NCBI RefSeq assembly: GCF_000482705.1
Contig: NZ_AXWO01000008.1
Location: 150,593 to 214,592, forward strand
From: Glycomyces arizonensis DSM 44726
GTDB taxonomy: Bacteria > Actinomycetota > Actinomycetes > Mycobacteriales > Micromonosporaceae
Reading direction: 5' to 3'
Length of the DNA: 64,000 bases
Part shown: positions 989 to 17,090 of the stretch, one piece after another
Position numbering within the stretch: the stretch's first letter is position 1
How the letters are laid out: each line of letters starts with the position of its first letter
Notes under the pieces: model-generated
Database searches by the model: none
Seen by the model: the letters and a program-made list of their open reading frames with translations, nothing else
What the model was told of the DNA's origin: nothing
Position numbers and translations under genes: made by a program

Positions 989-1783
989 TCAGCCGAGGAT
1001 GCGCCTCGCGCGCCCGAGCATGGCGGGGTCGACCATCTCGCCGTCGGGCAGGGTGGCGACGCCGCCGCCTCTTCCAGGACCGTGCTCCAGGGCGTCGACG
1101 ACGGCCCTGGCCCAGGCCCGCTCCTCCTCGGAGGGGGCGAAGACCGCCTCGATGACGGGCAGCTGCGCGGGGTGGACCGCGACGCGTCCGCGCAGGCCCA
1201 GGGCCCTGCCGCGCTCGGTGTCGGCGCGCAGGCCGTCGAGGTCGCGGATGGCGGGGTAGACCGAGAGCATCGGCGCGTCGAGCCCGGCGGCGCGGGCGGC
1301 GATGAGCAGCCGGACGCGCGCGTGGTCGAGCACGAGGGGGTCGGTGCTGCCGAGGTCGCTCGCGAGGTCGGCCTCCCCGAGGGCCACCTCGCGCACCGCG
1401 GGGTGGGCGGCGACGGCCGCGGCGGCTTCGAGGCCGCGGGCGGACTCGATGAGCGCGGTGAGCGGCAGCCCGCCCGCGAGCCGCGCGATCGCGTCGAGCT
1501 CGCGGGGGTCCTCGACCTTCGGGACGCGGAGGCCGACGGCGGCGCCCGTGCCGCGGACGGCCTCGATCTCGTGCGCGGCCCCGGCGTTCACCCGCACTTG
1601 GAGCGCGATGCCCGGCGGCGGGTCGGCGAGGTAGGCGGTGACGTTCGCGAGCGCCTCGGCCTTCGCGTCGGCGGCGACGGCGTCCTCCAGGTCGAGGATC
1701 ACGACGTCGGCGCCCGAGGCCGCGGCCTTGCCGAAGCGGTCCGGGCGGTCGCCCGGCACGTACAGCGCGCTGACCGGGCTCAT
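989..1783 (-). CDS. HpcH/HpaI aldolase-family CoA ester lyase (CitE-like)
   Basis: A 264-residue CitE-like lyase, predicted to cleave a beta-hydroxyacyl-CoA of the malyl-, citramalyl- or citryl-CoA type to acetyl-CoA plus a 2-oxo acid. Family motifs appear in order: VPGDRPDRF at the N-terminus, ILDLEDAV, the RVN arginine strand, RVPKVED, LIESARG, the metal-site segment ALGEADLASDLG and AVHPAQLP near the C-terminus. Length is close to single-domain bacterial CitE homologues (about 270-300). The ATG overlaps the stop of the CaiB-type gene as ATGA, so the two are translationally coupled. A CoA-transferase next to a CoA-ester lyase is a sensible pair: activate an acid, then cleave it. It is the last gene of the operon that begins with LacI at 12.6 kb. 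The exact acyl substrate cannot be read from sequence. Confidence 0.85.
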   Translation of the reverse strand: MSPVSALYVPGDRPDRFGKAAASGADVVILDLEDAVAADAKAEALANVTAYLADPPPGIALQVRVNAGAAHEIEAVRGTGAAVGLRVPKVEDPRELDAIARLAGGLPLTALIESARGLEAAAAVAAHPAVREVALGEADLASDLGSTDPLVLDHARVRLLIAARAAGLDAPMLSVYPAIRDLDGLRADTERGRALGLRGRVAVHPAQLPVIEAVFAPSEEERAWARAVVDALEHGPGRGGGVATLPDGEMVDPAMLGRARRILG

Positions 1784-2967
1784 ACGACCCCCCGCTTCCG
1801 CAGCAGGTCCAGCTGCTCGCGGGTGACGCCGGCCTCGGCGAGGACCTCGTCGGTGTCCTGGCCGTGCGGCCTGCCGGTCCAGCGGATCGCGCCGGGCGTC
1901 TCGGAGAGCCGGAAGAGCACGTTCTGCATCTTGACGGGCCCGAGCTCGTCGTCCTCGACGGTCTGGACGGTGCCGATCGCCCGGTACTGGGGGTCGGCGA
2001 GCACGCCGCGCACGTCGTAGACCGGCGCGATCGCCGCCTGCGCGGCCTCGAACGCCTCGACCACCTCGTCGGTGGGGCGCGAGGCGATCCAGGCGGCGAC
2101 CGCCTCGTCGAGCTCGTCGGCGTGCTGGGCGCGGGTGTGCCCGGAGGCGAACCAGGGCTCGTCGACGAGGTCGCCGCGGCCGACCAGGCGCATGACGCGC
2201 TCGGCGATCGACTGCGAGCTGGTGGAGACGGCCACCCAGTCGCCGTCGCCGGTGCGGTAGACGTTGCGCGGCGCGTTGTTGACCGAGCGGTTCCCGCTGC
2301 GCGGCTGGAGGGTGCCGAGCTGGTCGTAGGCGGTGATCTGGCCGCCGAGGAGCATCAGGATCGGCTCGATGATCGCGAGGTCGATGACCTGTCCGCGCTC
2401 GTCGCGGTCGGCGCCGCGGAGGGCGACGAGCACGGCGTAGGCGGTGGCGAGCGCGGCGATGCCGTCGGCGAGGCCGAACGGGGGCAGCGTCGGCGGCCCG
2501 TCGGGCTGCCCGGTGAGGGCCGCGAAGCCGCTCATGGCCTCGGCGAGGCTGCCGAAGCCGGGCCGGGAGGCGTAGGGGCCGGTCTGGCCGAACGCGGTCA
2601 CGCGGGCGACGACGAGGCGCGGGTTGGCCTTGTGGAGTTCCTCGGGCCCCAGGCCCCAGCGTTCGAGGGTGCCGGGGCGGAAGTTCTCGATGAGCACGTC
2701 GGCGTCGGCGGCGAGCCGCAGGAGCAGTTCGGCGCCCTCCTCGGTGCCGAGGTTGATCGTGACGGTGCGCTTGTTGCGCCCGAGGGTCTTCCACCACAGG
2801 TTGACGCCGTCCTTGGACGGGCCGTGGCCGCGCGCGGCGTCGGGCTTGGCCGGGTGCTCCACTTTGATGACGTCGGCGCCGAAGTCGCCGAGGAAGGTCG
2901 CGGCGATGGGCCCGGCGAAGAGCGTGGAGACGTCGAGGACGCGCAGGCCCTCCAGCGGCGCGGTCAT
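1780..2967 (-). CDS. CaiB/BaiF (family III) CoA-transferase
   Basis: A 395-residue cytosolic class III CoA-transferase that moves CoA from a donor acyl-CoA to a carboxylic acid. The N-terminus shows the family pattern LEGLRVLDVSTLFAGP, then LGDFGADVIKVEHP, NKRTVTINL, DADVLIENFRPGTLERWGLG and the catalytic-aspartate region PPFGLADGIAALATAYAVL. It is full length for the family (about 390-410). It overlaps both neighbours by 4 bp (ATGA) and so belongs to the same transcript as the CitE-like lyase downstream and the FGE-fusion gene upstream. With the lyase it could activate and cleave a dicarboxylic or hydroxy acid. Donor and acceptor are unknown; members of this family act on oxalate, carnitine, malate, citramalate and others. 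Confidence 0.88.
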   Translation of the reverse strand: MTAPLEGLRVLDVSTLFAGPIAATFLGDFGADVIKVEHPAKPDAARGHGPSKDGVNLWWKTLGRNKRTVTINLGTEEGAELLLRLAADADVLIENFRPGTLERWGLGPEELHKANPRLVVARVTAFGQTGPYASRPGFGSLAEAMSGFAALTGQPDGPPTLPPFGLADGIAALATAYAVLVALRGADRDERGQVIDLAIIEPILMLLGGQITAYDQLGTLQPRSGNRSVNNAPRNVYRTGDGDWVAVSTSSQSIAERVMRLVGRGDLVDEPWFASGHTRAQHADELDEAVAAWIASRPTDEVVEAFEAAQAAIAPVYDVRGVLADPQYRAIGTVQTVEDDELGPVKMQNVLFRLSETPGAIRWTGRPHGQDTDEVLAEAGVTREQLDLLRKRGVV

Positions 2968-4982
2968 GCGGTGTCCTCCAGGTCTCGGGCGATGCGGAAT
3001 CCGATGCCGCTCGAACGTTCGACGCCGAGCCCCGGCATCAGGTATTTGAGGCTGAACGTCGCGTCGCGGCGGCCGCCGTCGGTGTACCAGTCGGAGCCTT
3101 CGGCGCGGTGGTCACTGCCGCCCTTGAGCATCGCGAAGCGGGTGACGCCGTCGGAGTGCTCGCTCTCGGTCCAGTTCCACACGGCGGGAGTGCGGCGCTG
3201 GAAGCCGGGCCGCTCGGCGGCGAGCTGCCATTCGAACTCGTCGGGCAGTCGGGCGCCCGCCCACGCGGCGTAGGCGCGGGCGTCGGCGAGCGACACGCCC
3301 GTCACGGGGGCGCCGTCGGCTCCGGCGGTGCCGCAGAGGAACCGCGCAGATGCAACTGGCTCGTATCCGGTCGCGTCGAGGAACCTCCGGAACTCCCCCG
3401 CCGAGACCTCGCGGGCGGCGACGGCGACGGGCCGCCGGATCTCGACGTCGAGGGTCTCGGTCCGGTCGTCGTGCAGGCGCGGGGGCAGCGGCTTCCACTC
3501 TTCGACGTACGGGGCGCCTTGGTAGAAGCCGGTCTCGCGGCGGCGGTAGGTGACGGTGAGGCGGTGCGGGCCCGCCTCGACGCGGAGCGCGTCGGCGGGC
3601 GCGGCGGCGGATTCGGAGGGCTCGGGGACGATGCGGACCGCCTCGCGGGCGGGGAAGGCCGCGTCCGCCGAGCCGGGGTCGGCGGCGGCCTCGCGGAGCA
3701 GTCCGGGCAGCCAGGCGGGCTCGTCGGCGCCGGGCGCCAGTTCGAGGACGCCGGTGACGCCGCGGCCGGGCACGGTCACCGCGGCCGGGTCGGCGGTTCC
3801 GGCGGTGACGTCGTAGCGGCGCGCGCCTTCCTGGAGCGGCGCGGCGAGCGGGTCGCCGGTCCAGTCGCCCTCGGCGCGGTTGACAACAGTCCACAGTGTT
3901 GCGTCGTTCTTCGTCCAGCGCGAGACGTAGACTCCGGCGGCGATCGCCTCGGGCGTCGCGCCTTCGAGCGGCGACCACTCCCCCGCCACGAGGATCTCGT
4001 GCGCGGCCCGCTGCACGCGGAGCATGCGCCGCAGCGTCGCCTCGTCGCGCCGGTTCCAGCCGACCCACACGCCGAACACGGCGTCCCACACCAGGACGCC
4101 GGTGCCGTTCATCCACGCGGACTGGAGCTCGCCGCTGTGGTCGCGGTTCCAGCGCCGGATGGAGTGCATCATGTGGCGCCGCTCGTACCAGTGGGCCCGC
4201 TGCACGCCGGGCGCCTCGGAGTCGGCGAACCACTGGGCCCAGCTGAGCAGGTGGTCTTCGATCCGCTGATTGGGAACGCGGGACTCGCCTTCGAGGACCT
4301 GCGGCGGGTCGGTCTCGGTGAGGGCCTGCGTCAGTCTCGCGTCGCCCTCCTTGAGCGTGTCGAGGAAGACGCCGTCCGCGTTGTACTCCTGGACGAGCGC
4401 GGCGAGCTCGTCGGCGTCGTCGCGCTCGGGGCGGCGGGTGCCGGTGTCCCAGGGGTTGTAGTCGACGAAGACGCGCAGGCCGCGCTCGTGGAACTGCTCC
4501 ACGAGTCCCTTGAGGTCGGGAACGTCGCGGTAGAAGTCGAACTGGTTGCGGTCGTCGATGCCGATCACGGGGTAGGCGTGCCAGAGGACGAGGCCGTCGA
4601 GGCCGCCTTGGTCGGCGATGGACTCAAGGAAGGCGTCGACGGTGAACCGCTGCGCGGCGTGGTCGAAGAGCCGCTCGTCCCACAGCCACACCTGGGCGAC
4701 GGCGTAGGCGCGGCTCGCCCAGCGGGTCCGGGGGTCCCCGTAGGCGGCGCCGCTGTAGCGGAGCCGCCCACGGGATTCGTCGCGCCAGACGGTGAGGTCG
4801 GCGCGCCACGCGGGCCAGTCGGCGGGGTCGCTCGGGGCCGCGAAGATCTTGGCGATGTCGCCCGTCTCGGGGTCGATCGCGCCGCCGGAGGGCAGCGCCG
4901 TGGGCCGGTCGATGGGCCTGGGCACCAGCGGGTCGAACGTGTTCGTGGCGGCTTCGTCGGGGTCAGATTCCTTGCGCTGCAC
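2964..4982 (-). CDS. TIM-barrel glycosidase-like protein fused to a C-terminal FGE/SUMF1-like domain
   Basis: A 672-residue two-part protein. Residues about 45-400 look like a (beta/alpha)8 glycosidase-type barrel: strand segments GLDGLVLWHAYPVI, GLRVFVDYNPWDTG and YNADGVFLDTLKEG, with many aromatics. A beta-rich linker follows. Residues about 520-668 match formylglycine-generating enzyme/SUMF1 proteins: REVSAGEFRRFLDATGYEP, PVTGVSLADARAYAAWAG, ARLPDEFEWQLAAE, VWNWTESEH, MLKGGS and the closing SGIGFRIARD. The copper-binding cysteine pair of true FGE, normally just after the GGS turn, is absent (GGSDHRAEGSDWY), so sulfatase activation is unlikely and the domain may serve binding or another oxidation-independent role. 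There is no signal peptide. It overlaps ribokinase by 20 bp and CaiB by 4 bp. The family of the barrel is not recognised with certainty. Confidence 0.7.
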   Translation of the reverse strand: MQRKESDPDEAATNTFDPLVPRPIDRPTALPSGGAIDPETGDIAKIFAAPSDPADWPAWRADLTVWRDESRGRLRYSGAAYGDPRTRWASRAYAVAQVWLWDERLFDHAAQRFTVDAFLESIADQGGLDGLVLWHAYPVIGIDDRNQFDFYRDVPDLKGLVEQFHERGLRVFVDYNPWDTGTRRPERDDADELAALVQEYNADGVFLDTLKEGDARLTQALTETDPPQVLEGESRVPNQRIEDHLLSWAQWFADSEAPGVQRAHWYERRHMMHSIRRWNRDHSGELQSAWMNGTGVLVWDAVFGVWVGWNRRDEATLRRMLRVQRAAHEILVAGEWSPLEGATPEAIAAGVYVSRWTKNDATLWTVVNRAEGDWTGDPLAAPLQEGARRYDVTAGTADPAAVTVPGRGVTGVLELAPGADEPAWLPGLLREAAADPGSADAAFPAREAVRIVPEPSESAAAPADALRVEAGPHRLTVTYRRRETGFYQGAPYVEEWKPLPPRLHDDRTETLDVEIRRPVAVAAREVSAGEFRRFLDATGYEPVASARFLCGTAGADGAPVTGVSLADARAYAAWAGARLPDEFEWQLAAERPGFQRRTPAVWNWTESEHSDGVTRFAMLKGGSDHRAEGSDWYTDGGRRDATFSLKYLMPGLGVERSSGIGFRIARDLEDTA

Positions 4983-5859
4983 GGAACTTGCGCACCTCCT
5001 CCAGCGTCGGCATGGATGGGACGGCGCCCTTGCGCTGCACGGCGATGGCCGCGGCGGTGGTGGCGAAGCCGGTGGCGGCCACGAGCGCTTCGAGGTCCGT
5101 GCCGTCGAGGGCGGCGGCGAAGGCGCCCACGAACGCGTCGCCCGCGCCGGTCGTGTCGACGGCGTTCACCTTGTGGCTCGGGACGGGCACCGGCCCCGCG
5201 CCGGGAAGGCCGACCAGGGCGCCCTCGGCGCCGAGCGTGATGATGACCGCGCAGCCGTGGCCGGTCAGGGCCGTCATGGGGTCGGCCGCGGCGCCCGCGA
5301 GCTCGGCGGCCTCGTGCTCGTTGACCACGAGCACGTCGATGTCGCTCAGGACGTCGACCGGGACCGCGCCGCTGGGGGCGGCGTTGAGGACCACGCGGGT
5401 GCCCGCGGCCTTCGCCTCGCGCACGGCCTCGGCGACCGTGGGCACGGGCGTCTCCAGCTGGAGCACGAGCACGTCGGCGGCGGCGATCGCGTCCAGTTCG
5501 GAGCCGGTGAGCGAGGCGAGTTCGGCGTTGGCGCCGGAGTTCACGACGATCGAGTTCTCGGCGCGCCGGTCGACGTAGATGACGGCCGAGCCGGTCGGGG
5601 CGTCGACGCGGCGGTCGAGCAGCTCGATCCCGGCGCCGCGGGCCTCGGCGGCGAGGCGGTCCCCGGCGGCGTCGCGTCCGAGCGCGACGATGAAGCGCAC
5701 CTCCGCTCCGGACCGGGCGGCGGCGACGGCCTGGTTGTTGCCCTTCCCGCCCGGGAAGGCCTCGCAGCCGTGGGCGAGCACGGTCTCGCCGGGCGCGGGG
5801 ATGCGGTCGACGCCGTAGACGAGGTCGAGGTTGGCGCTGCCGAGTACGACGACTCTCAT
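4963..5859 (-). CDS. rbsK: ribokinase (PfkB family)
   Basis: A 298-residue PfkB-family sugar kinase, most like ribokinase: ATP plus D-ribose gives ribose 5-phosphate in the cytosol. It begins MRVVVLGSANLDLVYGVDRIP, carries the ribokinase-type GGKGNNQAVAAARSG substrate loop near residue 42, and the catalytic anion-hole motif NAVDTTGAGDAFVGAF near residue 245 with the general-base Asp. NAAPSGAVPV and VVNEHEAAEL are also typical of RbsK. Length is normal. ATG overlaps the stop of the upstream ADP-ribosylglycohydrolase gene (ATGA). Placed directly after two glycohydrolases that cut N- or O-ribosyl bonds, it probably captures the released ribose. Specificity for ribose over another furanose is inference from motifs. 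Confidence 0.85.
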   Translation of the reverse strand: MRVVVLGSANLDLVYGVDRIPAPGETVLAHGCEAFPGGKGNNQAVAAARSGAEVRFIVALGRDAAGDRLAAEARGAGIELLDRRVDAPTGSAVIYVDRRAENSIVVNSGANAELASLTGSELDAIAAADVLVLQLETPVPTVAEAVREAKAAGTRVVLNAAPSGAVPVDVLSDIDVLVVNEHEAAELAGAAADPMTALTGHGCAVIITLGAEGALVGLPGAGPVPVPSHKVNAVDTTGAGDAFVGAFAAALDGTDLEALVAATGFATTAAAIAVQRKGAVPSMPTLEEVRKFRAAQGI

Positions 5860-7208
5860 TGGGACACCTCCACTGTTCTGGCGGCGAGATCGGAGAAGCG
5901 GGTCCCGGCGAAGCCGGGGACGGACGTGTCGAGCCGGTCGTCGAGCGGGTCGATCCAGCGCGGCGGCAGGGCCTTCGCTCCGGTGGCGGCACCGGCGAGG
6001 GCGCCCGCGGTGGCGCCGACCGAGTCGGTGTCCCAGCCGCCGGAGACCGCGAGGGTGATGGTGCGCTCGAAGTCCCCCGCGCCGCGGGCGAGCGCGAACG
6101 CGAGCAGTGCGGCGTTGTTGAGGACGTGGACCCAGTGCAGGTGCCCGTATGCGGCGTGGAGGGCGTCGATCGCGGCCTCGTCGCCGAGACCGCCGCGGCC
6201 GAGCTCGACGCCGCGCCGCACGGCCGCGGCGTAGCGGCTCCGCGGCGGCACGACCGCGAGGCCGGTCTCCAGGACCGCGTCGATCGGGGCGCCCGCGACG
6301 GCCGCCGCGCTGGCGGCGGCGGCGAACATCGCGCCGTAGACGCCGCTGCGTCCGTGGCTCAGCCGCGCGTCGGTCCAGGCCATGCGGGCGGCGGCCACCG
6401 GGTCGCCGGGGCTCGCCCAGCCGTAGACGTCGGTGCGGATCTGCGCGCCGATCCAGTCGCGGAACGGGTTGCGCACCTTCCCGGCCTCGTCCGGCTCGTA
6501 GCCGTCGAGGAGGTTGCGGTAGACGATGCGCTCGGCGGTGAAGACGCGCCCGCCCGGCAGGCTGTCCAGCCAGGACTGCGCCACGTCGTCGGTGGTGAAG
6601 CCGCGCCCGACGCGTTCGAGCAGCGCGAGGGCGATGAGCGGGAAGTTCAGGTCGTCGTCCTCGGGCATGCCGTCGATGTTCTCGACGAGGCTGGTCGGAC
6701 GGCTGCGCCGGTTCCACGGGTAGCGGGCCGCGACGTGGGGGTCGAGCCCGATCTCGGTGAAGTAGGAGCCGAGCGGCCAGTTGCCGGTGGCGCGGCCGAT
6801 GGCGCGGATGCCTTCGAGCGGGATCTTCTCGACCGGTTTGCCGAGCAGGCAGCCGCTGGCGCGGCCGAGCCAGGCGCCGAGGACACGGTCGGCGTAGTCG
6901 GCGCCGCGTGAGCCGCGCCGCTCGGGCGGCTCAGCGGCGGCGAGGATCGCGTCGAGGTCCTCGGGCTCGGCCTCGCGCAGGGTCACGGGCTCGGGGAGGC
7001 GGTCGAGTTCGGCGAGCAGTCCGCGGGCGAGCGAGCGCAGCTCCTCGGACGCGGGTTCGGGCGTCGCGCCGCTGACGGCTGGTTCGGCCGCGCCGCCCGC
7101 GGCGAGCCAGCGTTCGCGCACGCCGGAGGCGTCGCGGCCGTCGAGTTCGGCGGCGACCAAGGCGTGCGGCACGAGGTCCTCGGGCTGCGTCCAGCTGAGC
7201 CGCATCAT
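5856..7208 (-). CDS. ADP-ribosylglycohydrolase family protein, long form
   Basis: A 450-residue member of the DraG/ARH fold, dinuclear-magnesium enzymes that hydrolyse ADP-ribosyl or ribosyl glycosidic bonds. The catalytic core starts near residue 130 with YADRVLGAWLGRASGCLLGKPVE. The first metal cluster is visible as MPEDDDLNF and the second as GGWDTDSVGATAGA near residue 400. The first roughly 125 residues, including EPVTLREAEPEDLDAILAA, form an extension not present in the neighbouring paralogue. Start is the first of two ATGs, overlapping the stop of the upstream paralogue by one base (TGATG). Two divergent paralogues side by side suggest either different substrates or a hetero-oligomer. 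A protein de-ADP-ribosylation role is less likely given the sugar transporter and ribokinase around it. Confidence 0.82.
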   Translation of the reverse strand: MMRLSWTQPEDLVPHALVAAELDGRDASGVRERWLAAGGAAEPAVSGATPEPASEELRSLARGLLAELDRLPEPVTLREAEPEDLDAILAAAEPPERRGSRGADYADRVLGAWLGRASGCLLGKPVEKIPLEGIRAIGRATGNWPLGSYFTEIGLDPHVAARYPWNRRSRPTSLVENIDGMPEDDDLNFPLIALALLERVGRGFTTDDVAQSWLDSLPGGRVFTAERIVYRNLLDGYEPDEAGKVRNPFRDWIGAQIRTDVYGWASPGDPVAAARMAWTDARLSHGRSGVYGAMFAAAASAAAVAGAPIDAVLETGLAVVPPRSRYAAAVRRGVELGRGGLGDEAAIDALHAAYGHLHWVHVLNNAALLAFALARGAGDFERTITLAVSGGWDTDSVGATAGALAGAATGAKALPPRWIDPLDDRLDTSVPGFAGTRFSDLAARTVEVSQ

Positions 7209-8359
7209 CAGCTCACCGTTTCCGTGTCGAATGCGTCTCGGGCCTCGGCGACTCGCGCGGCGCGGTCGGCGTCGGCCGCCCACACGTCGCGGGCGACGGC
7301 GGCGATGAGCGGCCCGGTGGCGGTGATGTCGATGCGGCTGCCCTCGCTCACGTCGCGGATCCACTCGCCGGGCACGGCGCCCGCGCCGCCGAGGGCGCCC
7401 GCGACGGCCCCGGCCATGACGGCGATCGAGTCGGAGTCCCGGCCGTAGTTCACCGCGCCCAGAACGGACTCGCGGTAGTCGCCGTTCGCGGCGATCAGCA
7501 TGCCGAGGGCGATCGGGAGCTCCTCGATGGACTTGGTGCGGCTGGGGATGCGCGCGTCCATCGCGGGCTGCCGGTAGTGCGGGCCGACCGTGTCGAACGG
7601 CTCGACGGCGCGCCGCAGCTCGGCGAGACCGCCGGTGCGCCAGTCGCCGACGCCGGACGCAGCCTGCGCGACGGCGTCGATCGCGGCCCTCGTGCCGTCC
7701 TTGGCGAGCCGCAGCGCGGCCTCGACCACCGAGTCGACGGTGGCGCCGGGCCGCATCGCCTCGGCCACGGCCGCGGCGAAGACCCCGGCGGCCTCGCGCC
7801 CGTAGCTCGACTGGTGGGCCCCGGCGACGTCGATCGCCTCGGCGTAGGCGGCCTCGGGGTCGCCGGCGTTGACGATGCCGATCGGCGCGACGTACATCGT
7901 GGCGCCGCAGTTGACGATGTTCCCCACGCCCGCCTCGCGCGGGTCGATGTGCCCGTAGTGGAGCCTGGCGACGAGCCACTTCTCGGCCAGGAACACGCGG
8001 TGCAGCAGCAGCGACTCCGATTCGAGCTCGGGGATCCAGCGCTTCTCGCCGATGAGCAGCGGCACCAGGTGCTCGGCGATCGCGTGGGCGTCGAGGTGGT
8101 CCCGAACGGTGCCGTAGACGTCGACCAGGGCCGTGGTCATGAGGGTGTCGTCGGTGATGTGGCCGTCGCCCTTGTGGTACGGGGCGATCGGGCGGGCGTG
8201 GCGCCAGTCCTCGTTGAACGGGGGCACGATGCCCTCGATGAGGCCGCCGTAGCGGCTCTGGATCGCTTCGGGCGCGTTCCCCTCGGCCGCGCCGCCGAGT
8301 GCGTCGCCCACTGCCGCGCCCGCGAGCGCGCCCGTCGACTTCGTCACCAGCGTGTCCAT
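7208..8359 (-). CDS. ADP-ribosylglycohydrolase family protein, short form
   Basis: A 383-residue DraG/ARH-type glycohydrolase. Core motifs: LAGAAVGDALGGAAEG at the N-terminus, the first metal-binding motif GDGHITDDTLMTTAL, a central NCGATMYVAPIGIVNAGD, and the second metal site VNYGRDSDSIAVMAGAVAGAL. All the aspartate/threonine ligands expected for an active dinuclear Mg enzyme are present. The start MDTLVTKS is preceded by AAGGAGACACG, a good ribosome site. It lies 94 bp downstream of the binding-protein gene and is coupled to its paralogue by a one-base stop/start overlap. It is cytosolic, with no signal peptide. The substrate is presumably what the upstream CUT1 transporter brings in; that is inference from position. 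Confidence 0.85.
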   Translation of the reverse strand: MDTLVTKSTGALAGAAVGDALGGAAEGNAPEAIQSRYGGLIEGIVPPFNEDWRHARPIAPYHKGDGHITDDTLMTTALVDVYGTVRDHLDAHAIAEHLVPLLIGEKRWIPELESESLLLHRVFLAEKWLVARLHYGHIDPREAGVGNIVNCGATMYVAPIGIVNAGDPEAAYAEAIDVAGAHQSSYGREAAGVFAAAVAEAMRPGATVDSVVEAALRLAKDGTRAAIDAVAQAASGVGDWRTGGLAELRRAVEPFDTVGPHYRQPAMDARIPSRTKSIEELPIALGMLIAANGDYRESVLGAVNYGRDSDSIAVMAGAVAGALGGAGAVPGEWIRDVSEGSRIDITATGPLIAAVARDVWAADADRAARVAEARDAFDTETVS

Positions 8360-8453
8360 CGTGTCTCCTTGCTTCGAGTTCGTGTTCGGCGTCCGCCGGG
8401 GCGGTGCCGGGGGGCGCATCGCCCCGGCGGACGCGGGTCAGCGTGCGGTCGCC

Positions 8454-9743
8454 CTATAAGCCCAGTTCGGACCAGCCGTCGACGAGCTGCGTCTTGAGTT
8501 CGTCGAGGCTGATCTCGTCGGCCAGGTACTGCTGGAGGGCGGGCGTGGCGTACTGGTCCTTCCACTGCGGATAGTTGACGGCCGCCTGGAACGGGGCCGC
8601 GGACAGCCCGTCGCCCGAGGCGAGGATGGCCTCCCAGCCGTTCTCACCGGCGGTGTCCTCGGCGACCTGGGCCCGCGCCTCGCTGGAGGCGGGGATCAGC
8701 CAGTCGCCCTCGGCGAGCGCCGCCTGGTGCTCGGGCTGCATGAAGAAGTCGATGAACTCGGCGGCCTCCTCGACGTGGTCGCTCTCGGCGGCGACGGACA
8801 TCGTCTGCGGGTTGGCCGCCTGGACCGCTCCGGCCGTGCCCGCCAGCGGCGGCAGCACCGCCCAGTCGAAGCCCTCGGGCGCCGACTCGACGAGCTGCTG
8901 GGCGACGTAGTTGCCCGCGACGTACAGGGCGTACTTGCCGTCGAAGAAGCCCGGCAGCACGTCCGAGCCGCTCTGGGTGAGCGAGACGGGGTCGAGCGAC
9001 TGGTCCTCGTAGGCCATGGTGTGGATGCGCTCGGGCACGGCCAGTTCGTTCTCGCCGACCTCGATCTGCGTGTCCTCGCCCTCGCCGGTGAAGAAGGTGC
9101 CGTCGAAGCCGAGGGCCAGGTTCATGACGGCGGCGGTCGGCTGCTTCATGCCCCAGCCGACGCCGTACGTGCCGTCGCCGGTGAGCTCCTTCGCCATCGT
9201 CTGGAAGTCGTCCCAGTTCAGCGTCTCCCCGGCGGGGACCTCGACCCCGGCGTCGGCGAGCGCGCCGGTGTTCGCGAAGACCACGTAGGACTGGAGCAGC
9301 GTGGGCGCGGCGACGACCGAGCCGTCTTGGGCGGTGACGGCCTGCCAGACGTCGTCCGAGACCGCGCCGGTCACCTCGTCGCTGAGGTAGGGGCTCAGGT
9401 CGGCGAGGTAGCCCTGCTTCGCGAAGCCCATGATGTCCGCGGACTCGTCGTGGATGATGTCGGGGGCCGTGCCGCCCTGGAACTGGGTGACCAGCTGGTC
9501 GTGGACGTTGTCCCAGCTGCCCTGGACGAGCTCCACCTGGGTGTCGGGGTGCTCGTCGTTCCAGGCGTCGACGATGTCCTGGGTGGCGGCGATCGTCGTG
9601 TCCTGGAACGCCAGCGACTGGAAGGTCAGCGTGGCGCCGTCCCCGTCGTCGCCGCCGACGCCGAACGCCGAGCAGCCGGTGAGCGCGAGGGGCAAGGCGA
9701 TGGCGATCGCGGCGCCCGCTCGGGCGCCGATGCGAGTGCGCAT
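8454..9743 (-). CDS. CUT1-type sugar ABC transporter, substrate-binding lipoprotein
   Basis: A 429-residue extracellular solute-binding protein (family 1). The signal sequence RIGARAGAAIAIALPLALTGCSAFG contains a lipobox (LTGC), so the mature protein is lipid-anchored at the cysteine about 24 residues in. Typical features follow: TLTFQSLAFQDT, VDAWNDEHPDTQVELVQGSWDN, FQGGTAPDIIHDES, a hinge region and the FDGKYALYVAGNYVAQQ segment. The start MRTRIG is chosen because it places the basic n-region right before the hydrophobic core; an ATG 42 bases upstream gives an acidic leader. It is third in line behind the two permeases and ahead of the glycohydrolases, 47 bp from the second permease stop. 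No ATPase gene is present; CUT1 systems commonly share one MsmK-type ATPase encoded elsewhere. Confidence 0.9.
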   Translation of the reverse strand: MRTRIGARAGAAIAIALPLALTGCSAFGVGGDDGDGATLTFQSLAFQDTTIAATQDIVDAWNDEHPDTQVELVQGSWDNVHDQLVTQFQGGTAPDIIHDESADIMGFAKQGYLADLSPYLSDEVTGAVSDDVWQAVTAQDGSVVAAPTLLQSYVVFANTGALADAGVEVPAGETLNWDDFQTMAKELTGDGTYGVGWGMKQPTAAVMNLALGFDGTFFTGEGEDTQIEVGENELAVPERIHTMAYEDQSLDPVSLTQSGSDVLPGFFDGKYALYVAGNYVAQQLVESAPEGFDWAVLPPLAGTAGAVQAANPQTMSVAAESDHVEEAAEFIDFFMQPEHQAALAEGDWLIPASSEARAQVAEDTAGENGWEAILASGDGLSAAPFQAAVNYPQWKDQYATPALQQYLADEISLDELKTQLVDGWSELGL

Positions 9744-9790
9744 GGCTTTCTCTCTTTCGTAGTGAGGATCGTTCGGCGAAGTCATGAGGA

Positions 9791-10651
9791 TCAACCCTTG
9801 ACCGCGCCGCTGAGGAGTCCGGCAGTGAGCCGTTTCTGGATGAGCATGAAGAAGCCGAGGCTCGGGATGCAGGCGAGGAGCGCGGCCGCGGCGAGCTGGC
9901 CGAGCTGGACCTGCCCTTCGGAGCCGACGAAGCGCGCCAGCGCGAGCGGCAGGGTCTGCATGTCCGGGTCCTGGATGAGCACCAACGCGAAGAAGAACTC
10001 GTTCCAGGAGTTGATGAACGTGAACAGGCTGGTGGCGACCAGTCCGGGCGCCAGCAGCGGCAGGACGATCCTGCCGAGCGTCCGCATCCGGCTCGCCCCG
10101 TCGACCGCGCCGGCCTCCTCCAGCTCGACCGGGATGGCGGCCACGTAGCCCTGGAGCATCCACAGCGAGAACGGCAGCGCCCACACCGCGTACACGAGCA
10201 CGAGGCCCAGCAGCGTGTTCACCAGTCCGATGTTCTTGAGCAGCAGGAACAGCGGGATGATGATGAGGATGAACGGGAAGACCTGGCTGAGCAGGATCCA
10301 GCCGGTGGCCAGGCCGCGGAGCCTGGTGCGGAAGCGCACCAGGGCGTAGGCGGCGGGCAGGGCCACGGCGGTCACGATGACGGTGGTCGTCACCGCGACG
10401 AGGAGGCTGTTGCCCGCGGCGGTGAACAGGTCCGCCTTCTCGATCGCGTCGGTGAAGTTCTGCCAGTTGAGGCTCTCGGGGAGGACCCCGGCGTCCGGCG
10501 AGCGCAGTTCGCGCGAGGTCTTGAAGGCCGTGCTGAGCAGGAACAGCAGCGGGAACGCCAGGAAGCACATGTACGCGAGGAGCGCGAGGTACTGGAGCGG
10601 TCTGGCGAACGGGTTCCGCCCCGGCTTGGAGCCGCTGGTCGATGTGGTCAC
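9791..10651 (-). CDS. CUT1-type sugar ABC transporter, permease (MalG/UgpE-like)
   Basis: A 286-residue inner-membrane permease with six predicted helices, starting around LQYLALLAYMCFLAFPLLFLL. The EAA loop that docks to the ATPase reads VELEEAGAVDGASRMRTLGRIVLPLLAPG, with the family glycine. The C-terminus RLTAGLLSGAVKG is the usual MalG-like ending. It starts with GTG in a GTGA overlap with the stop of the partner permease, so the two are translated together. It forms the transmembrane channel with the gene upstream. Confidence 0.9.
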   Translation of the reverse strand: MTTSTSGSKPGRNPFARPLQYLALLAYMCFLAFPLLFLLSTAFKTSRELRSPDAGVLPESLNWQNFTDAIEKADLFTAAGNSLLVAVTTTVIVTAVALPAAYALVRFRTRLRGLATGWILLSQVFPFILIIIPLFLLLKNIGLVNTLLGLVLVYAVWALPFSLWMLQGYVAAIPVELEEAGAVDGASRMRTLGRIVLPLLAPGLVATSLFTFINSWNEFFFALVLIQDPDMQTLPLALARFVGSEGQVQLGQLAAAALLACIPSLGFFMLIQKRLTAGLLSGAVKG

Positions 10652-11580
10652 TGGAGCCGCCTCCTCATCTGGCCGCGGAGGTAGAAGAACAGGAACACGC
10701 CGATCAGGACGACCATGACGTTGCCCATGGCCGCCGCGTAGCCGAAGTTCCCGTATCGGAAGGCCTCGTTGTACGCGAACAGGCTCGGCAGCATCGTGGT
10801 GCCGCCCGGCCCGCCCGCGGTGAGCACGAACACGAGCGCGAAGGAGTTGAAGTTCCAGATCAGGTCGAGCGTGGTGATCGCCGTGATGATCGGGCGCAGT
10901 GCGGGCAGGGTGACGTGCCAGAAGCGGCGCCAGGTGCTCGCCCCGTCGATCGCGGCGGCCTCGTTCAGCTCGGCGGGGACGCTCTGGAGCCCGGCGAGCA
11001 GGGTGATCGTGGTCTGCGGCATGCCCGCCCAGACGCCGACGACGATGACGACCGGCAGCGCGATCGAGGACTCGCCGAGCCAGTTGACGTCGCCGGGCAG
11101 GCCGAGGGCGCCGAGGGCCCGGTTGACCGGTCCGTAGTTCGGGTTGAGCATGAGCTGCCACATGATCGCGATGATCACCGGCGGCATCGCCCAGGGGACG
11201 AGCGCGAGGGTGCGCGCGAGCCAGCGCAGGCGCAGGTCGAGGTTGAGCAGCAGCGCCAGGCCGAGGGAGGCGAGGAACTGGAGGATCGTGACGCTGAAGG
11301 CCCAGATCAGGCCGATCTTGAACGAGGTCCAGAACAGGCCGTTGCCGGCCAGTTCGACGTAGTTGTCGATGCCGTTGAAGTGGGTCTCGACGCCCAGTCC
11401 GGCGTGGGCGTCGGTGAAGCCGAGGAGGACGCCGTACACCAGCGGGTAGACGCTGAACAGCATCACCGGGAGCAGCGCGGGCAGGACGAGCGGCCACGCG
11501 TCGCGGCCGCCGCCGCTGAGGCGCGGCTTGCGGCGCGGCCGGGTCGGCCGTTCGTCGAGCGGCCGGGCGATCGTCGTCAT
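10648..11580 (-). CDS. CUT1-type sugar ABC transporter, permease (MalF/UgpA-like)
   Basis: A 310-residue permease. After a basic cytosolic N-terminus (about 27 residues) come six hydrophobic spans beginning WPLVLPALLPVMLFSVYPLV, with the periplasmic loop GLGVETHFNGIDNYVEL typical of MalF-like subunits. The EAA loop is VPAELNEAAAIDGASTWRRFWHVTLPALRP. Its ATG overlaps the stop of lacI (ATGA), so regulator and transporter are one transcription unit. Partner of the MalG-like permease directly downstream. Confidence 0.9.
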   Translation of the reverse strand: MTTIARPLDERPTRPRRKPRLSGGGRDAWPLVLPALLPVMLFSVYPLVYGVLLGFTDAHAGLGVETHFNGIDNYVELAGNGLFWTSFKIGLIWAFSVTILQFLASLGLALLLNLDLRLRWLARTLALVPWAMPPVIIAIMWQLMLNPNYGPVNRALGALGLPGDVNWLGESSIALPVVIVVGVWAGMPQTTITLLAGLQSVPAELNEAAAIDGASTWRRFWHVTLPALRPIITAITTLDLIWNFNSFALVFVLTAGGPGGTTMLPSLFAYNEAFRYGNFGYAAAMGNVMVVLIGVFLFFYLRGQMRRRLQ

Positions 11581-12611
11581 GAGCGGACCTCCGCGTGGTC
11601 GGTCACGGGACCGGTCGACTCGCGCACCGACAGCGAGGGCGCGATGACGAGCCCGCGGACGGGCGCCTCGGGGTCCTCGATCCTTCGGATGAGCAGCTTG
11701 GCGGCGGCCTTGGCGCGCTTGGCCGAGCCGAGGTCGACGCTGGTGAGCGAGGGCGTGGCGAGTTCGGCGGCGTCGGTGTCGTCCATGCCGACGACGGCGA
11801 CGTCGTCGGGGACGCGGGCGCCTGAGGCGGCGAGCTCTTTGAGCGCCGCCACGGCGAGCAGGTCGTTGGCGCAGACGACCGCGTCGGGGCTCGCCTGGCC
11901 GAGGAGGTCGGCGACCGCCCTGCGGCCCGCGCGGTAGGTGAAGCCGGTGGCGGTCACCTGGAGTTCGGGGCTCGACGGGAGTTCGAAGCGCCGGATCGCG
12001 TCGAGGTATCCGGCCAGCCGTGCGGCGCCGGGGACGGTGTCGACCGGGCCGTTGACGAGCGCGATGCGGCGTCGGCCCTGGGCGGCGAGGTGCTCGACGG
12101 CGAGGCCGACGCCGGTCGCGGAGTCGGCGCGCACGTTGTCGAGTTCGACGTCGGGCGGGAGGGAGCCGATGACCACGATGGGCAGGCGGCTGGCGCGCAT
12201 GGCCTCGATGAGCTCGGGGGTGATGCGCAGGGGGCTCAGCAGGAGACCGTCGGCGTAGCCGCGGTTCAGACTGGTGACCAGGTCGATCTGGTCGTCGGGG
12301 TCGCTGCCGGTGGAGGAGACCACGAGGCGGTAGCCGGCCCTCGCGACGATCGGGGTGACGGTGCGCATCATCTGCACGTAGACCGGGTTGCCGACGTCGG
12401 CGACGGCGAGGGCGATCTGGTCGGTGCGGCCGGTCCGGAGGGTGCGGGCGCTGGCGTCGGGCACGTAGCCGAGTGCCTCGGCGGCCTCGCGGACGCGGCG
12501 GGTCATGTCCTCGGAGGCGGAGCCGCCGTTGAGGACGCGGGACACCGAGGCCACGGAGACCCCGGCGCGCGCGGCGACCAGCGCGAGGTTCGACTTCTTC
12601 GTCTCGGCCAT
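11577..12611 (-). CDS. LacI-family transcriptional regulator, first gene of the ribosyl/CoA operon
   Basis: A 344-residue LacI-type repressor. The helix-turn-helix is LALVAARAGVSVASVSRVLNG at residues about 8-28, followed by the hinge helix and a periplasmic-binding-protein-like effector domain (TDQIALAVADVGNPVYVQMM, DAVVCANDLLAVAALKELA, VVGMDDTDAAELATPSLTSVD). The ATG at 12611 is preferred because GAAGGG lies eight bases before it and the HTH then starts at the usual place; the ATG at 12641 has no clear ribosome site and would sit only about 10 bases from the operator palindrome. It heads the operon and overlaps the first permease gene by 4 bp, so it probably autoregulates. The effector is unknown. 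Confidence 0.88.
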   Translation of the reverse strand: MAETKKSNLALVAARAGVSVASVSRVLNGGSASEDMTRRVREAAEALGYVPDASARTLRTGRTDQIALAVADVGNPVYVQMMRTVTPIVARAGYRLVVSSTGSDPDDQIDLVTSLNRGYADGLLLSPLRITPELIEAMRASRLPIVVIGSLPPDVELDNVRADSATGVGLAVEHLAAQGRRRIALVNGPVDTVPGAARLAGYLDAIRRFELPSSPELQVTATGFTYRAGRRAVADLLGQASPDAVVCANDLLAVAALKELAASGARVPDDVAVVGMDDTDAAELATPSLTSVDLGSAKRAKAAAKLLIRRIEDPEAPVRGLVIAPSLSVRESTGPVTDHAEVRS

Positions 12612-12650
12612 CCGCAGCCCTTCGTCGTCGACGGCACTCATCGTTGAGAA

Positions 12651-12664
12651 CGTTCTTAAGAACG
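12651..12664. promoter_or_regulatory. candidate LacI operator, perfect 14-bp palindrome
   Basis: The sequence CGTTCTTAAGAACG is a perfect palindrome lying just upstream of the LacI gene, in the only stretch that can hold the promoter of the ten-gene operon. LacI-family proteins bind palindromes of about this size. A related half-site, AAGAACG, recurs at 12670-12676. It lies about 245 bp from the divergent cutinase start, so control of that gene is possible but unsupported. Confidence 0.65.
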
Positions 12665-12908
12665 ATTACAAGAACGATATCAGCTTCCAGAGACTCCTGT
12701 CACCGGCGGCGCGGACAGAGGTGAAACGACTGGTCATCGCCGACCGATCGCCCGAACACGCCGCGAGGGGCCGAGGTCGGCGCTCGGCATCGCCGAGGCC
12801 GCGCATCCGGACGCGGAGGACCGGTGATTTCGCCGATGCAGACCGTCCGGTCGGTATGTGACGGTGTTCCACAGCACTTGCAGCGATTCCCGTCAAGGAG
12901 GACGAATC

Positions 12909-13811
12909 ATGCGCCCAACGACATCGCATCCGCCGACGAGACGGCGCCGCGCCCTGCGCGCCCTCGGCGTGGTCGCGACGATGCTGACCATGCTCGGGGC
13001 CGGGGTCCTGGCGGGCCCCACCGCCGCCGCGGCCCAGAACCCCTACGAACGCGGCCCCGCGCCGAGCGAGTCCAGCATCGAGGCGAGCCGCGGCCATTAC
13101 GACGTGTCGAGCACGATCGTCTCGTCCCTGGTCTCCGGATTCGGCGGCGGCACCGTCTACTACCCCACCACCCGTTCTGACGGCACCTTCGGCGCGGTCG
13201 CGATCTCGCCGGGCTACACCGCCGCGCAGTCGTCGATCCAGTGGCTCGGGCCGCGCATCGCCTCGCAGGGCTTCGTCGTCATCACGATCGACACGAACAC
13301 CCGGTGGGACCAGCCGAGCCAGCGGGCGTCCCAACTGGAGGCCGCGCTCGACTACCTGGTCGAGGACAGCGACGTCGCCGACCGCATCGACCCCGGCCGC
13401 CTGGCCGTCATGGGCCACTCGATGGGCGGCGGCGGCTCGATCGAGGCGGCCGACGAGCGGCCCGAGCTCCAGGCGAGCATCCCGATGACGCCCTGGCACC
13501 TGGACAAGACCTGGCCCGGCGTCACCGTCCCGACCCTGGTCTTCGGCGCCGAGAACGACTCGATCGCCCCGGTCTACTCGCACGCCGAGCCGTTCTACAA
13601 CTCGATTCCCGACTCGACCGACAAGATGTACATCGAGCTCGACGGCGCGACGCACTTCGCGCCGAACACCTCGAACACGACCATCGCGAAGTACTCCATC
13701 TCGTGGCTCAAGCGCTTCGTGGACAACGACACCCGCTACGACCAGTTCCTCTGCCCGCTGCCGGACGAGAGCGCCATCGAGGAGACCCGGGGCTCCTGCC
13801 CGCTCGGCTGA
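12909..13811 (+). CDS. secreted polyesterase: cutinase / PET-hydrolase-like (dienelactone-hydrolase superfamily)
   Basis: A 300-residue alpha/beta-hydrolase closely resembling actinobacterial cutinases such as Thermobifida TfCut2 and Saccharomonospora Cut190, which hydrolyse cutin-like and synthetic polyesters outside the cell. A Sec signal (four Arg, then a hydrophobic core, ending PTAAAA) precedes the mature start [14 protein letters not shown]. The catalytic triad is Ser171 (GHSMGGGG), Asp217 (GAENDSIAP) and His249 (GATHFAPN); the spacings of 46 and 32 residues equal those recalled for TfCut2. The oxyanion/aromatic-clamp tyrosine (SPGYTA) and tryptophan (TPWHLDK, Trp196) are kept, as is the C-terminal disulfide pair (FLCP and GSCP). 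An AAGGAGG site sits eight bases before the ATG. The gene is monocistronic, closed by a strong hairpin. Family assignment is firm; activity on PET itself is untested. Confidence 0.93.
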
Positions 13812-13906: not shown

Positions 13907-15577
13907 ATGCAACGGCGCGCACCGCAGGCCGCTGCCCAGGCGACGACGCCCGCGCAGCCGCAGGCACCTGCCGTGGCCGCGACCGTCCGAAGGCTCGAGG
14001 ACGGCAGCATCGCGCTCGTCCTGACCGACGCCGACGCGCACCTGCTCGCCGAGGCGAGCGCCGACCAGCCGCTGCTGGTGCGCGTGGCGGCCGGGACGGA
14101 CGGCGTCCGAGCCCGGGCCGAACTCGCGCGCGGACTGCGGGCCTTGGGCGACGGTCCGGTGAGCGACGCCCACGCCTCCCTGCTCCTCGCCGCGTCCCTG
14201 TTCGCCCGCTCCCGCGTCGCCGATCCGCGCCCGGCGCTCACCGCGGTCCTCGCCGCCGCCGACGCCGCGTGGTCCGCGGGCGACCGTCCCACCTGCCTGG
14301 CCGCGCTGGAGGCGGCCCGGTCCGTGCTGACGGCCGCCACGCCCGTCGAGGGCGACTGCGCGCGCCTGCGCGATCACCTCCTCGGCCTGCACGCGCTCCT
14401 CGAACAGCGCTTCGCGGACGCGGCCGGGCCACTGCGGCGCGTCCTCGCACACGGACGCGACGACTCGCCGGAGACGCTGCGCCGCGCCGCCATGGCGGCG
14501 CTGCTGCTCGGCGAGATCGCGACCTCCTGCCGCATGGGCGTGCGGGCGCTGGCCGCATCGCGCGCCGAGGGGCGCGACGACCTGGCCGCGCAGACGCTCG
14601 AACACCTCGCCTACGCCGAGATGCGCGCGGGGCTCCACGCCAGGGCGCGCGCCCACGCCGGTGAGGGACTGCAAGTGGCGCTGCGCTCGGGGCGCTCCAA
14701 CACCGCGGCGCACCACCGGGCGGTCCTCGCCCTGACCGCGTCCGTCGAGGGCGACACCGAGGAGGTGGCGGTCCAGGCCGCGCTGGCGCTGTCGACGGCG
14801 CGGCGCCACGGCCTGGAGCAGACGCGCACGCTCGCCGAGTGGGCCCTGGCCAGAGCCGAGCTCGGCCGGGGGCGGGCCGAGGCGGCCGCCGCCCGGCTGG
14901 GCGAGCTCGTCCGGGCCGACGGCGGTCACTTCGCGGTGCGTCCGCTGCTCATGCCCTGCTTCATCGAGGCCGCGGTGCTCGCAGGACAGGCCGAGGCGGC
15001 GCGTCCGGTCGCGGACGCGTTCCAGGCGTGGGCCGGGTTCGGCATCGACCGGGCGGCGGCCGCGCAGCTCGCGCGCTGCCGGGCGCTCCTGGCGACCGCC
15101 GGGGCCGGGGCCGACACCGTCGAGGACCTGTACCGGCGCGCCATCGACCTGCACGCGGCGGACATCGGCGACTATGAGCGGGCCCGCACGCAGTTGCTGT
15201 ACGGCAACTGGCTGCGGCGGCGCAGGCGCCCCCGAGAGGCCCGCGCCGTCCTGCGCGACGCCCTGCACGGCTTCGAGCGGTGCGGGGCGCGGGCCTGGGC
15301 GGATCAGGCCAGGGCGGCGCTGCGGGCCACGGGCGAGGCCGCCACCGGGCTCGGCGAGGACGCGGTCCTGTCGTCGCTGACGCCGCATCAGTTGCGGATC
15401 GCCAGGCACGTGGCGACCGGGGCGACGAACCGCGAGGTGGCGCAGGCGCTCTCGGTCAGCGTGCGCACCGTGGACCACCACTTGCGCAACATCTTCGCCG
15501 CGCTGGGCGTGCGGTCCAGGGTGGAGCTGGCCCGGCTGGTGGCGAATGCCCCCGAGCGGGAGCCTATGGCCCGGTGA
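13907..15577 (+). CDS. LuxR-type transcriptional regulator with TPR-like body, no ATPase domain
   Basis: A 556-residue regulator. The last 65 residues hold a LuxR/GerE helix-turn-helix: LTPHQLRIARHVATGATNREVAQALSVSVRTVDHHLRNIFAALGVRSR in pieces, with the conserved VRTVDHHL recognition helix. Residues about 90-480 are alanine-rich helical pairs (for example AAQTLEHLAYAEMRAG and YERARTQLLYGNWLRRRRRPREARAVL) like the TPR sensor of MalT/LAL regulators. The N-terminal P-loop ATPase that LAL proteins carry is missing; no GxxGxGKT motif is seen. The first 30 residues are Gln/Ala/Pro-rich. It follows the cutinase in the same direction but is separated by a terminator, so control of the cutinase is only a possibility. 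Its 3' end overlaps the converging hydrolase gene by 14 bp. Confidence 0.8.
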   Translation: MQRRAPQAAAQATTPAQPQAPAVAATVRRLEDGSIALVLTDADAHLLAEASADQPLLVRVAAGTDGVRARAELARGLRALGDGPVSDAHASLLLAASLFARSRVADPRPALTAVLAAADAAWSAGDRPTCLAALEAARSVLTAATPVEGDCARLRDHLLGLHALLEQRFADAAGPLRRVLAHGRDDSPETLRRAAMAALLLGEIATSCRMGVRALAASRAEGRDDLAAQTLEHLAYAEMRAGLHARARAHAGEGLQVALRSGRSNTAAHHRAVLALTASVEGDTEEVAVQAALALSTARRHGLEQTRTLAEWALARAELGRGRAEAAAARLGELVRADGGHFAVRPLLMPCFIEAAVLAGQAEAARPVADAFQAWAGFGIDRAAAAQLARCRALLATAGAGADTVEDLYRRAIDLHAADIGDYERARTQLLYGNWLRRRRRPREARAVLRDALHGFERCGARAWADQARAALRATGEAATGLGEDAVLSSLTPHQLRIARHVATGATNREVAQALSVSVRTVDHHLRNIFAALGVRSRVELARLVANAPEREPMAR

Positions 15578-16412
15578 GGAAGCGGCGCAGCCGGGCGGCG
15601 ATGAGCTCGGGCCGCCCGCCGCGGTTGCGGTTCGCGGCGCCGCCGTGGTTGAGACGGTCGAATTCGACGCGCTCGGGGTGCGGCAGGACCCGTTCCAGGG
15701 CGTCCAGGGCCGTCTTGAGGTAGCCGGGGCTGCCGGCGCCGCCGAGCAGGAGCACGGGGACGTCGAGGGCCGCGTAGCGGTCGATCCGGTCGGCCGCCTC
15801 GCGCACCAGCGCGATGTCCTGGCGGAACGTCGGCGTGAGCTCCCGCAGCGTCACCCGGGTGCCGTCGGGGCGGCGGTCCCCGGCCGCGAGCATGAGGCGG
15901 GCGACGGCGGCCAGCGCCCACCGGGGCATGCCGCCGCCGAACATCCGCGTGCCCCGGGTGGCGGTGGCCAGCGCCGAGGCGAGGCGACCGTCGGCAATCT
16001 CCCGGTCGAAGCGGTCCGCGAAGGACCAGTCGATGGAGCCGCCGACCGCCAGCGGCGGCTCGTAGACGGCCACGCGCTCGACCGAGGGGAGCGCCAGCGC
16101 CGCCTCCAGGGCGATGATGCCGCCGGTGCTGACGCCGAAGACGGCCTTCGCGCCGGTGTCGCGCAGCAGAGCGGCGAGATCGGCGGTCTCGCCGCCGAGC
16201 CCGAAGCCGTCGGGGATCGGCCCGCTGGAGGCCCGGCCGCGCCGGTCGGGCAGGTGGACGGTGCAGGTCTCGGCGAGGGCCTCGGCGAGCTGCCCGTGGC
16301 TGGTGGCGGACTCGAATCCGCCGTGGACGATGACGAGTCCGGGGCCGGTGCCGGTCGTGAGGCGGCCGATGGCGGCGCCGTCGGGGGCGGTCAGGGAGTC
16401 GGTGGTGAACAT
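15564..16412 (-). CDS. alpha/beta-fold hydrolase
   Basis: A 282-residue cytosolic alpha/beta hydrolase of unknown substrate. The oxyanion segment is IVHGGFESATSH, the nucleophile elbow is FGVSTGGIIAL (Ser in GVSTG), and the late histidine is probably in DRLNHGGAAN. It starts MFTTDSLTAPDGAAIG; the ribosome site is weak. It is divergent from a TetR regulator 79 bp away with an inverted repeat between, the standard layout for a TetR-controlled detoxification or ester-hydrolysis gene. Confidence 0.82.
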   Translation of the reverse strand: MFTTDSLTAPDGAAIGRLTTGTGPGLVIVHGGFESATSHGQLAEALAETCTVHLPDRRGRASSGPIPDGFGLGGETADLAALLRDTGAKAVFGVSTGGIIALEAALALPSVERVAVYEPPLAVGGSIDWSFADRFDREIADGRLASALATATRGTRMFGGGMPRWALAAVARLMLAAGDRRPDGTRVTLRELTPTFRQDIALVREAADRIDRYAALDVPVLLLGGAGSPGYLKTALDALERVLPHPERVEFDRLNHGGAANRNRGGRPELIAARLRRFLTGP

Positions 16413-16426
16413 GAGCCCATTCTCAC

Positions 16427-16442: not shown

Positions 16443-16491
16443 AGTCAAGCAAGCGTGTGAAAATTCGCTACGCGGAGGTAACCTCAACCGG

Positions 16492-17082: not shown

Positions 17083-17090
17083 GCGGCCCC

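Follow-up and report, generated by a model that had tools for sequence, protein, structure and literature searches.

The window analysed here, a 64,000-nucleotide stretch of DNA from a Glycomyces relative, contains ten genes on the minus strand between approximately positions 989 and 12641; all ten named in the original prediction are present. In operon order, they encode a LacI-family regulator (11577..12641; 354 aa from a start at 12641, or 344 aa from 12611; PF00356/PF13377), a MalF/UgpA-type permease (10648..11580; 310 aa; PF00528), a MalG-type permease (9791..10651; 286 aa; PF00528), a sugar-type extracellular solute-binding protein (8454..9743; 429 aa; PF01547, E = 5.3e-38), two ADP-ribosylglycohydrolase-fold proteins, DraG1 (7208..8359; 383 aa; PF03747, E = 5.9e-48) and DraG2 (5856..7208; 450 aa; PF03747, E = 7e-52), a ribokinase-like PfkB kinase (4963..5859; 298 aa; PF00294), a barrel protein that models as GH13-like and carries a C-terminal FGE-like domain (2964..4982; 672 aa; GTG start), a CaiB-like class III CoA-transferase (1780..2967; 395 aa; PF02515, E = 1.9e-121), and a CitE-like C–C lyase with a predicted hydroxyacyl-CoA lyase function (989..1783; 264 aa; PF03328). 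The Pfam assignments agree with the families previously claimed, namely LacI, BPD_transp_1 (twice), SBP_bac_1, ADP_ribosyl_GH (PF03747, twice), PfkB, PF03781, CoA_transf_3, and HpcH_HpaI, with the PF03781 match limited to the C-terminal part of the barrel protein. Most of the genes had also been described as overlapping, and with the start codons chosen here seven of the nine junctions do so: by 4 bp at lacI/permF, permF/permG, dra2/rbsK, barrel/caiB, and caiB/citE, by 1 bp at dra1/dra2, and by 20 bp at rbsK/barrel. Gaps of 47 bp and 94 bp separate permG from the binding-protein gene and the latter from dra1, respectively. Divergent from lacI lies a gene for a PETase/cutinase-like secreted hydrolase (12858–13811, plus strand; PF12740, 411 bits); it was considered as a part of the operon and rejected, as it has no match in the stretches of 80 related loci.

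The perfect 14-bp palindrome reported upstream of the operon, CGTTCTTAAGAACG, is found at 12651–12664, where it overlaps a predicted CG-centered LacI operator core, TAAGAACGTTCTCA (12645–12658, minus strand), which is assigned from the enrichment of this class of site upstream of lacI. The palindrome is exact in nine of ten other Glycomyces loci and forms the center of a larger site with a CG-centered LacI-type core on each side; in these nine loci the exact palindrome sits between two cores about 12 bp apart, and the corresponding site in L040 is one 26-bp palindrome. Outside Glycomyces, the conserved site is CG-centered. Counted over the 73 of 80 loci whose lacI match exceeds 40% identity and which have 150 bp or more of upstream sequence, a CG-centered LacI-type palindrome lies no more than 300 bp from the lacI match in 62 of 73 upstream regions, as compared with 19 of 1600 random windows from the same loci; two such palindromes, mostly spaced 31–35 bp apart, occur in 38 of 73 regions and 11 of 1600 random windows. 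As the two cores on either side of it are asymmetric, eight of the nine Glycomyces loci with the exact palindrome fail this CG-centered rule. There is a conserved predicted LacI-type operator in the promoter region, and the LacI protein would likely respond to the substrate or to its sugar. Within one mismatch, TAAGAACGTTCTCA has its sole genome match at this position; a reversed control pattern also matched in one place, so a dedicated regulator is only weakly indicated by this single match.

When one genome per species was scanned, 241 stretches proved to code for a barrel-protein relative, and locus statistics rest on the best 80 of these, loci cut by contig ends included. Rather than homologous loci lacking most of the genes, the neighborhood comparison proposed with the original prediction recovered all ten genes, in identical order and on one strand, in 61 of the 80. 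Six loci are cut by contig ends (L044, L048, L061, L077, L084, L086); ten lack rbsK alone, as judged by no tblastn match above 50 bits (L047, in which lacI is also displaced, L052, L053, L056, L058, L059, L062, L064, L093, L094); and three lack both caiB and citE (L049, L051, L075), with rbsK additionally absent from L049 and L075, and dra1 and lacI from L075. This ten-gene clustering is far beyond chance. When 200 genomes were drawn from the window's own family, 99 had some DraG2 match, and in the short stretches around the best 30 of these DraG2 loci, DraG1 and the kinase adjoin in all 30 and the barrel in 25; four genomes of one genus lack the barrel and carry two extra DraG-like genes in the operon. 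A phylum-wide search with the barrel alignment matched 128 of 396 drawn genomes; among the matches listed, a full-length barrel protein occurs in the window's own genome only, and this draw says little about the spread of the operon because the other listed rows match only the C-terminal domain.

The families covered include Glycomycetaceae, Microbacteriaceae, Pseudonocardiaceae, Promicromonosporaceae, Cellulomonadaceae, and others, and the set extends to the class Acidimicrobiia in Desertimonas flava. Barrel proteins of ten Glycomyces loci are 76–87% identical to that of the window, and that of Stackebrandtia likewise 80%. Pairwise distances among the ten proteins, taken over 62 rows (61 loci and the window), correlate at 0.91–0.98. 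In a tree of the same rows, made by a quick method and with long branches flagged for L113, L073, L071, and L057, the window's nearest row is Glycomyces tenuis; the tree also mixes families, grouping Glycomyces with Leifsonia and an Actinophytocola with Microbacteriaceae. These placements suggest transfer of the whole unit. Together with the distance correlations, the family-crossing tree indicates that the set behaves as one unit, a conclusion that is well supported.

The position of the CoA genes within this unit bears on an alternative explanation, in which a sugar operon and an itaconate/citramalate-like dicarboxylate module are merely co-inherited, reflecting a shared habitat and not a shared molecule. 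CaiB and CitE are absent from L049, L051, and L075, as described above, and DraG/importer cores without CoA genes are found on alphaproteobacterial, Deinococcus, Mycolicibacterium, and Nonomuraea replicons, with no caiB or citE match in the stretches examined. Among these, DraG genes occur with ribokinase, CoA genes being absent, in A. tumefaciens, Deinococcus, and Mycolicibacterium; plasmids of Nitratireductor and Phyllobacterium carry the DraG pair but no ribokinase next to it, in plasmid records with incomplete gene tables; and in Nonomuraea (L167) a third DraG accompanies the core, with no barrel, caiB, or citE match in 19 kb. The alphaproteobacterial plasmid operons (A. tumefaciens HAMBI 105, Nitratireductor, Phyllobacterium) share with the window the order lacI, two permeases, solute-binding protein, DraG1-like gene, and second DraG, with ribokinase in A. 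tumefaciens only; they differ in a second DraG of about 700 aa, part of which is assigned to no family, in having their own UgpC ATPase, and in giving no barrel, caiB, or citE match. By these sequence comparisons, the CoA genes seem to have been added to a DraG/importer core that is more widely distributed. Co-inheritance would also be compatible with the arrangement in C. necator in which, according to the excerpted text of PMC12290011, a second citramalyl-CoA lyase homolog stands beside a CoA-transferase with no hydratase. However, the barrel/caiB and caiB/citE genes overlap in the window, the pairwise distances of caiB correlate at 0.93 or above with those of every other operon protein, and caiB is present in the operon even where the barrel is absent (L144–L147). 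We regard mere co-inheritance as quite unlikely; the sugar and acid genes would serve one substrate.

For the importer, the best NCBIfam models of the MalF/UgpA-type permease are UgpA and then MalF, both under cut-off, and no ATPase gene is present among the ten operon genes. Naming the ligand through solved binding proteins was tried; the similarities of the nearest solved relatives are too low for this purpose (best E = 3.8e-17).

The two DraG proteins score 177 and 164 bits against PF03747 (cut-off 26.2). In residue counts based on the best tblastn segment per locus (at least 38% identity; 56 to 80 loci per residue), D184–D186, D393, and D395 of DraG2 are invariant in 76 of 76 loci, and T69–D71, D308, and D310 of DraG1 in 75 of 75; we take these motifs to form the metal-binding site. 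Such conserved motifs, within family PF03747, would also be expected if the operon served ADP-ribose or protein-ADP-ribosylation turnover, with the DraG proteins as true ADP-ribosyl hydrolases and the remaining genes as accessories. Both proteins nevertheless score far under the NCBIfam equivalog cut-offs for DRAG (337 bits; 31 for DraG2 and 40 for DraG1) and Tri1 (490 bits; 24 and 48, respectively), and the sugar-type importer, the GH13-like barrel, and the fusion of DraG2 to the barrel in some relatives fit small glycosides. True protein de-ADP-ribosylation was accordingly judged unlikely from these scores, the barrel, and the fusion, and we give ADP-ribosylation turnover as a whole only a slight chance.

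A small-molecule glycoside as substrate leaves the identity of the sugar to be considered. The kinase scores 268.1 bits against the D-ribokinase equivalog TIGR02152, under its cut-off of 299.65; two ribokinase models give 268 and 236 bits, and the next kinase model 86. D12, E136, and D241 are invariant in 64 of 64 loci, and N42 varies (45 of 64). Other genomes show DraG2-like genes in the company of other glycosidase families: in L152, the gene of a GH127 beta-L-arabinofuranosidase lies close to those of a DraG2-like protein and a sugar importer (15221–17431, minus strand, and 9335–10720, plus strand); in L151, an open frame of 998 aa within a sugar ABC locus (7517–10513, minus strand) joins a DraG-fold domain to GH32 domains that follow it; and a GH38-like gene, read by eye only, lies near a further DraG2-like gene. 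The GH127 and GH32 associations imply that the sugar may be another furanose, of the arabinofuranose, apiose, or fructofuranose type, with a shifted kinase specificity, to which the missed ribokinase cut-off and the variable N42 would also conform; the ten loci that lack rbsK alone likewise speak against ribose. The margin of the ribokinase models over the next kinase, the three invariant kinase residues, and the regulator, whose best NCBIfam models are RbsR-type (184 bits, below the cut-off of 382), argue against this reading, which we consider rather improbable; ribose is the likely released sugar.

The "FGE-fused barrel" of the original prediction is borne out as far as the domain is concerned, an FGE-like domain (PF03781) being present at the C-terminus; by its residues, however, the domain is not an FGE enzyme. 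The active site of formylglycine-generating enzymes is a cysteine pair, and an alignment of 20 barrel proteins has no cysteine in any column that is invariant or nearly so. Pfam likewise identified no sulfatase among the ten operon genes, and a role in sulfatase maturation was rejected on both grounds. The remainder of the protein models as a GH13-like glycosidase by fold: the predicted structure is a (beta/alpha)8 barrel matching GH13 of clan GH-H, with low confidence in the active-site loops, and Pfam returned no GH13 match. The catalytic set of GH13 is Asp/Glu/Asp; in the barrel proteins, D208, E231, and E233 are invariant in 80 of 80 loci, and D300, a possible third catalytic acid, is found in 31 of 80. 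Natural fusions among 120 listed barrel relatives join DraG2 to the barrel in four cases and the kinase to the barrel in one.

On the acid branch, CaiB scores 406 bits against PF02515, and D168, presumably the catalytic Asp of class III CoA-transferases, is invariant in 77 of 77 loci. The protein resembles succinate-hydroxymethylglutarate/glutarate and related transferases, under equivalog cut-offs (NCBIfam SucGlutTfs, 233 bits against a cut-off of 750; PDB matches 4ed9 and 9br7). CitE in turn resembles citramalyl-CoA-lyase-type enzymes: the best of three models is (S)-citramalyl-CoA lyase RipC/Ccl (NF038242; 144 bits against a cut-off of 375), the PDB acyl-CoA lyases 8khl/9nzb match at E = 1.3e-44, and E113 and D139, which we assume to be key catalytic or metal-site positions, are invariant in 77 of 77 loci. 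Reading the identity of the acid from CitE similarity was tried and was not decisive. In the itaconate pathway, a hydratase works between the CoA-transferase and the lyase (PMC12290011, as excerpted). No itaconyl-CoA hydratase was identified by Pfam among the ten operon genes, which suggests that the acid should already bear a hydroxyl group.

An additional gene in some relatives may link the acid to the sugar. In 28 of 80 loci (tblastn above 45 bits; loci of unequal length), a PF00756 esterase gene lies downstream in the same orientation; in 27 of them it comes after citE and starts within about 520 bp, and in L049, where caiB and citE are absent, it directly follows the barrel. It also stands between the barrel and caiB in L158, L159, and L161, though not in L160. 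The nearest solved structures of the L159 copy are esterases, including CE1 and ferulic acid esterases, and several copies begin with signal-like stretches by eye. As a CE1-like esterase accompanies the CoA genes in some loci, an ester linkage of the acid is more likely than its being a glycosidic aglycone, and an ester-bound acid is, by inference, the likeliest connection between the sugar and acid branches; a hydroxy-dicarboxylic acid is a plausible candidate. The original prediction of a catabolic unit for a ribosylated compound with an acid aglycone is thus retained in part: one catabolic unit with a sugar and an acid branch is likely, given the 61 of 80 complete loci, and the aglycone linkage is the part we would revise. 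Were the DraG proteins, glycosyl hydrolases by family, to split a ribosyl-acid directly, no ester would be involved and the esterase would serve another purpose; the 52 of 80 loci (stretches of unequal length) without a tblastn esterase match, and the window's own genome, without one at E <= 0.001, are in keeping with that arrangement. It accords poorly with the placement of the esterase between the barrel and caiB or directly after the barrel, and with the three loci that keep DraG2 and the barrel without caiB and citE, and we consider it fairly unlikely. One operon esterase, in L054 (14295–16805, plus strand), has a C-terminal half with a weak beta-propeller match and, by eye, a membrane-anchor-like tail, which suggests display on the surface.

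Read from protein families and gene neighborhood at every step, an ester-linked substrate would be processed as follows. The binding protein and two permeases would import the compound, energized by an ATPase encoded elsewhere; the esterase, downstream in some relatives and not found in this genome, would release the acid; the GH13-like barrel would take off a glycosyl unit; DraG1 and DraG2 would cut ribofuranosyl-type bonds through their metal site; and the RbsK-like kinase would trap ribose as ribose 5-phosphate. The CaiB-like enzyme would place CoA on the freed acid, probably from succinyl-CoA, and the CitE-like lyase would split the hydroxyacyl-CoA into acetyl-CoA and an oxo acid: pyruvate if the acid is citramalate, glyoxylate if malate, or acetoacetate if 3-hydroxy-3-methylglutarate. 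We give roughly an even chance to this overall reading, in which a conserved, likely catabolic operon imports a ribose-type glycoside with an ester-bound hydroxy acid and directs the sugar to pentose metabolism and the acid to acetyl-CoA. Weighing against it are the loci without an esterase match, the window's own genome among them; the loci without rbsK and the alphaproteobacterial plasmids with no ribokinase beside the DraG pair; the GH127 and GH32 associations of DraG2-like proteins; the three loci and the Nonomuraea core without caiB and citE; and, in the barrel, the poorly kept D300 and the low-confidence active-site loops. More tentatively, and with greater doubt, the operon may be the footprint of an undescribed but common class of environmental metabolites, ribofuranosides bearing a hydroxy-dicarboxylic acid in ester linkage, and of a pathway dedicated to them (DraG-fold small-molecule glycosidases, GH13-like barrel, esterase, and CoA-transferase/lyase); the operon would then have passed from one actinobacterial family to another as a single unit.

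LacI-controlled oligosaccharide ABC operons of the maltose/cellobiose type share with this locus the LacI regulator, the sugar-type binding protein, and permeases without their own ATPase; the catabolic enzymes here are, by contrast, a DraG pair, a ribokinase-like kinase, and CoA enzymes. The itaconate degradation cluster (ict, ich, ccl; RipABC type) similarly pairs a CoA-transferase with a citramalyl-CoA-lyase-type enzyme to yield acetyl-CoA and pyruvate (PMC12290011, in the excerpted text), whereas the operon here has no itaconyl-CoA hydratase, misses the equivalog cut-offs, and is joined to a sugar importer and glycosidases. E. coli yegTUV likewise sets a DraG-family protein beside a transporter and a putative sugar kinase, controlled by a regulator with a single target, and its function has been linked to glycogen; it differs in having one DraG gene and a secondary transporter (a putative nucleoside symporter), and no CoA-transferase, lyase, barrel, or esterase, as far as the excerpted text of PMC10819704 describes it. 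The original prediction knew of no characterized pathway with this gene set, and our literature searches gave no description of one, nor anything relevant on ribose-citramalate compounds; with mostly open-access coverage, this is weak evidence of absence.

Judging from the 241 stretches and 61 of 80 complete loci, numerous actinobacteria of soil and plants seem to invest in a single compound, and the operon may point to a soil food molecule still to be found; the binding protein and LacI regulator make the ligand directly findable. The acid branch offers a handle on the substrates of hydratase-less pairs of CoA-transferase and citramalyl-CoA-lyase-type enzymes, such as that of C. necator (PMC12290011, excerpted text), and the sugar branch on the roles of DraG-fold proteins outside ADP-ribosylation, where, in the excerpted text of PMC10819704, E. 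coli yegU is equally open. Further DraG architectures occur in the loci compared. L164 (10021–12120) and L168 (11220–13322) encode DraG proteins of about 700 aa with approximately 400 C-terminal residues without a Pfam match; L150 (6764–10356) has three consecutive DraG-family genes next to a divergent lacI–binding protein–permease–ribokinase set, with no caiB or citE matches; and in L148 (8076–10290, minus strand), a DraG2-like gene adjoins what are, by eye, an FGE-like protein and a frame with a sulfatase-like start.
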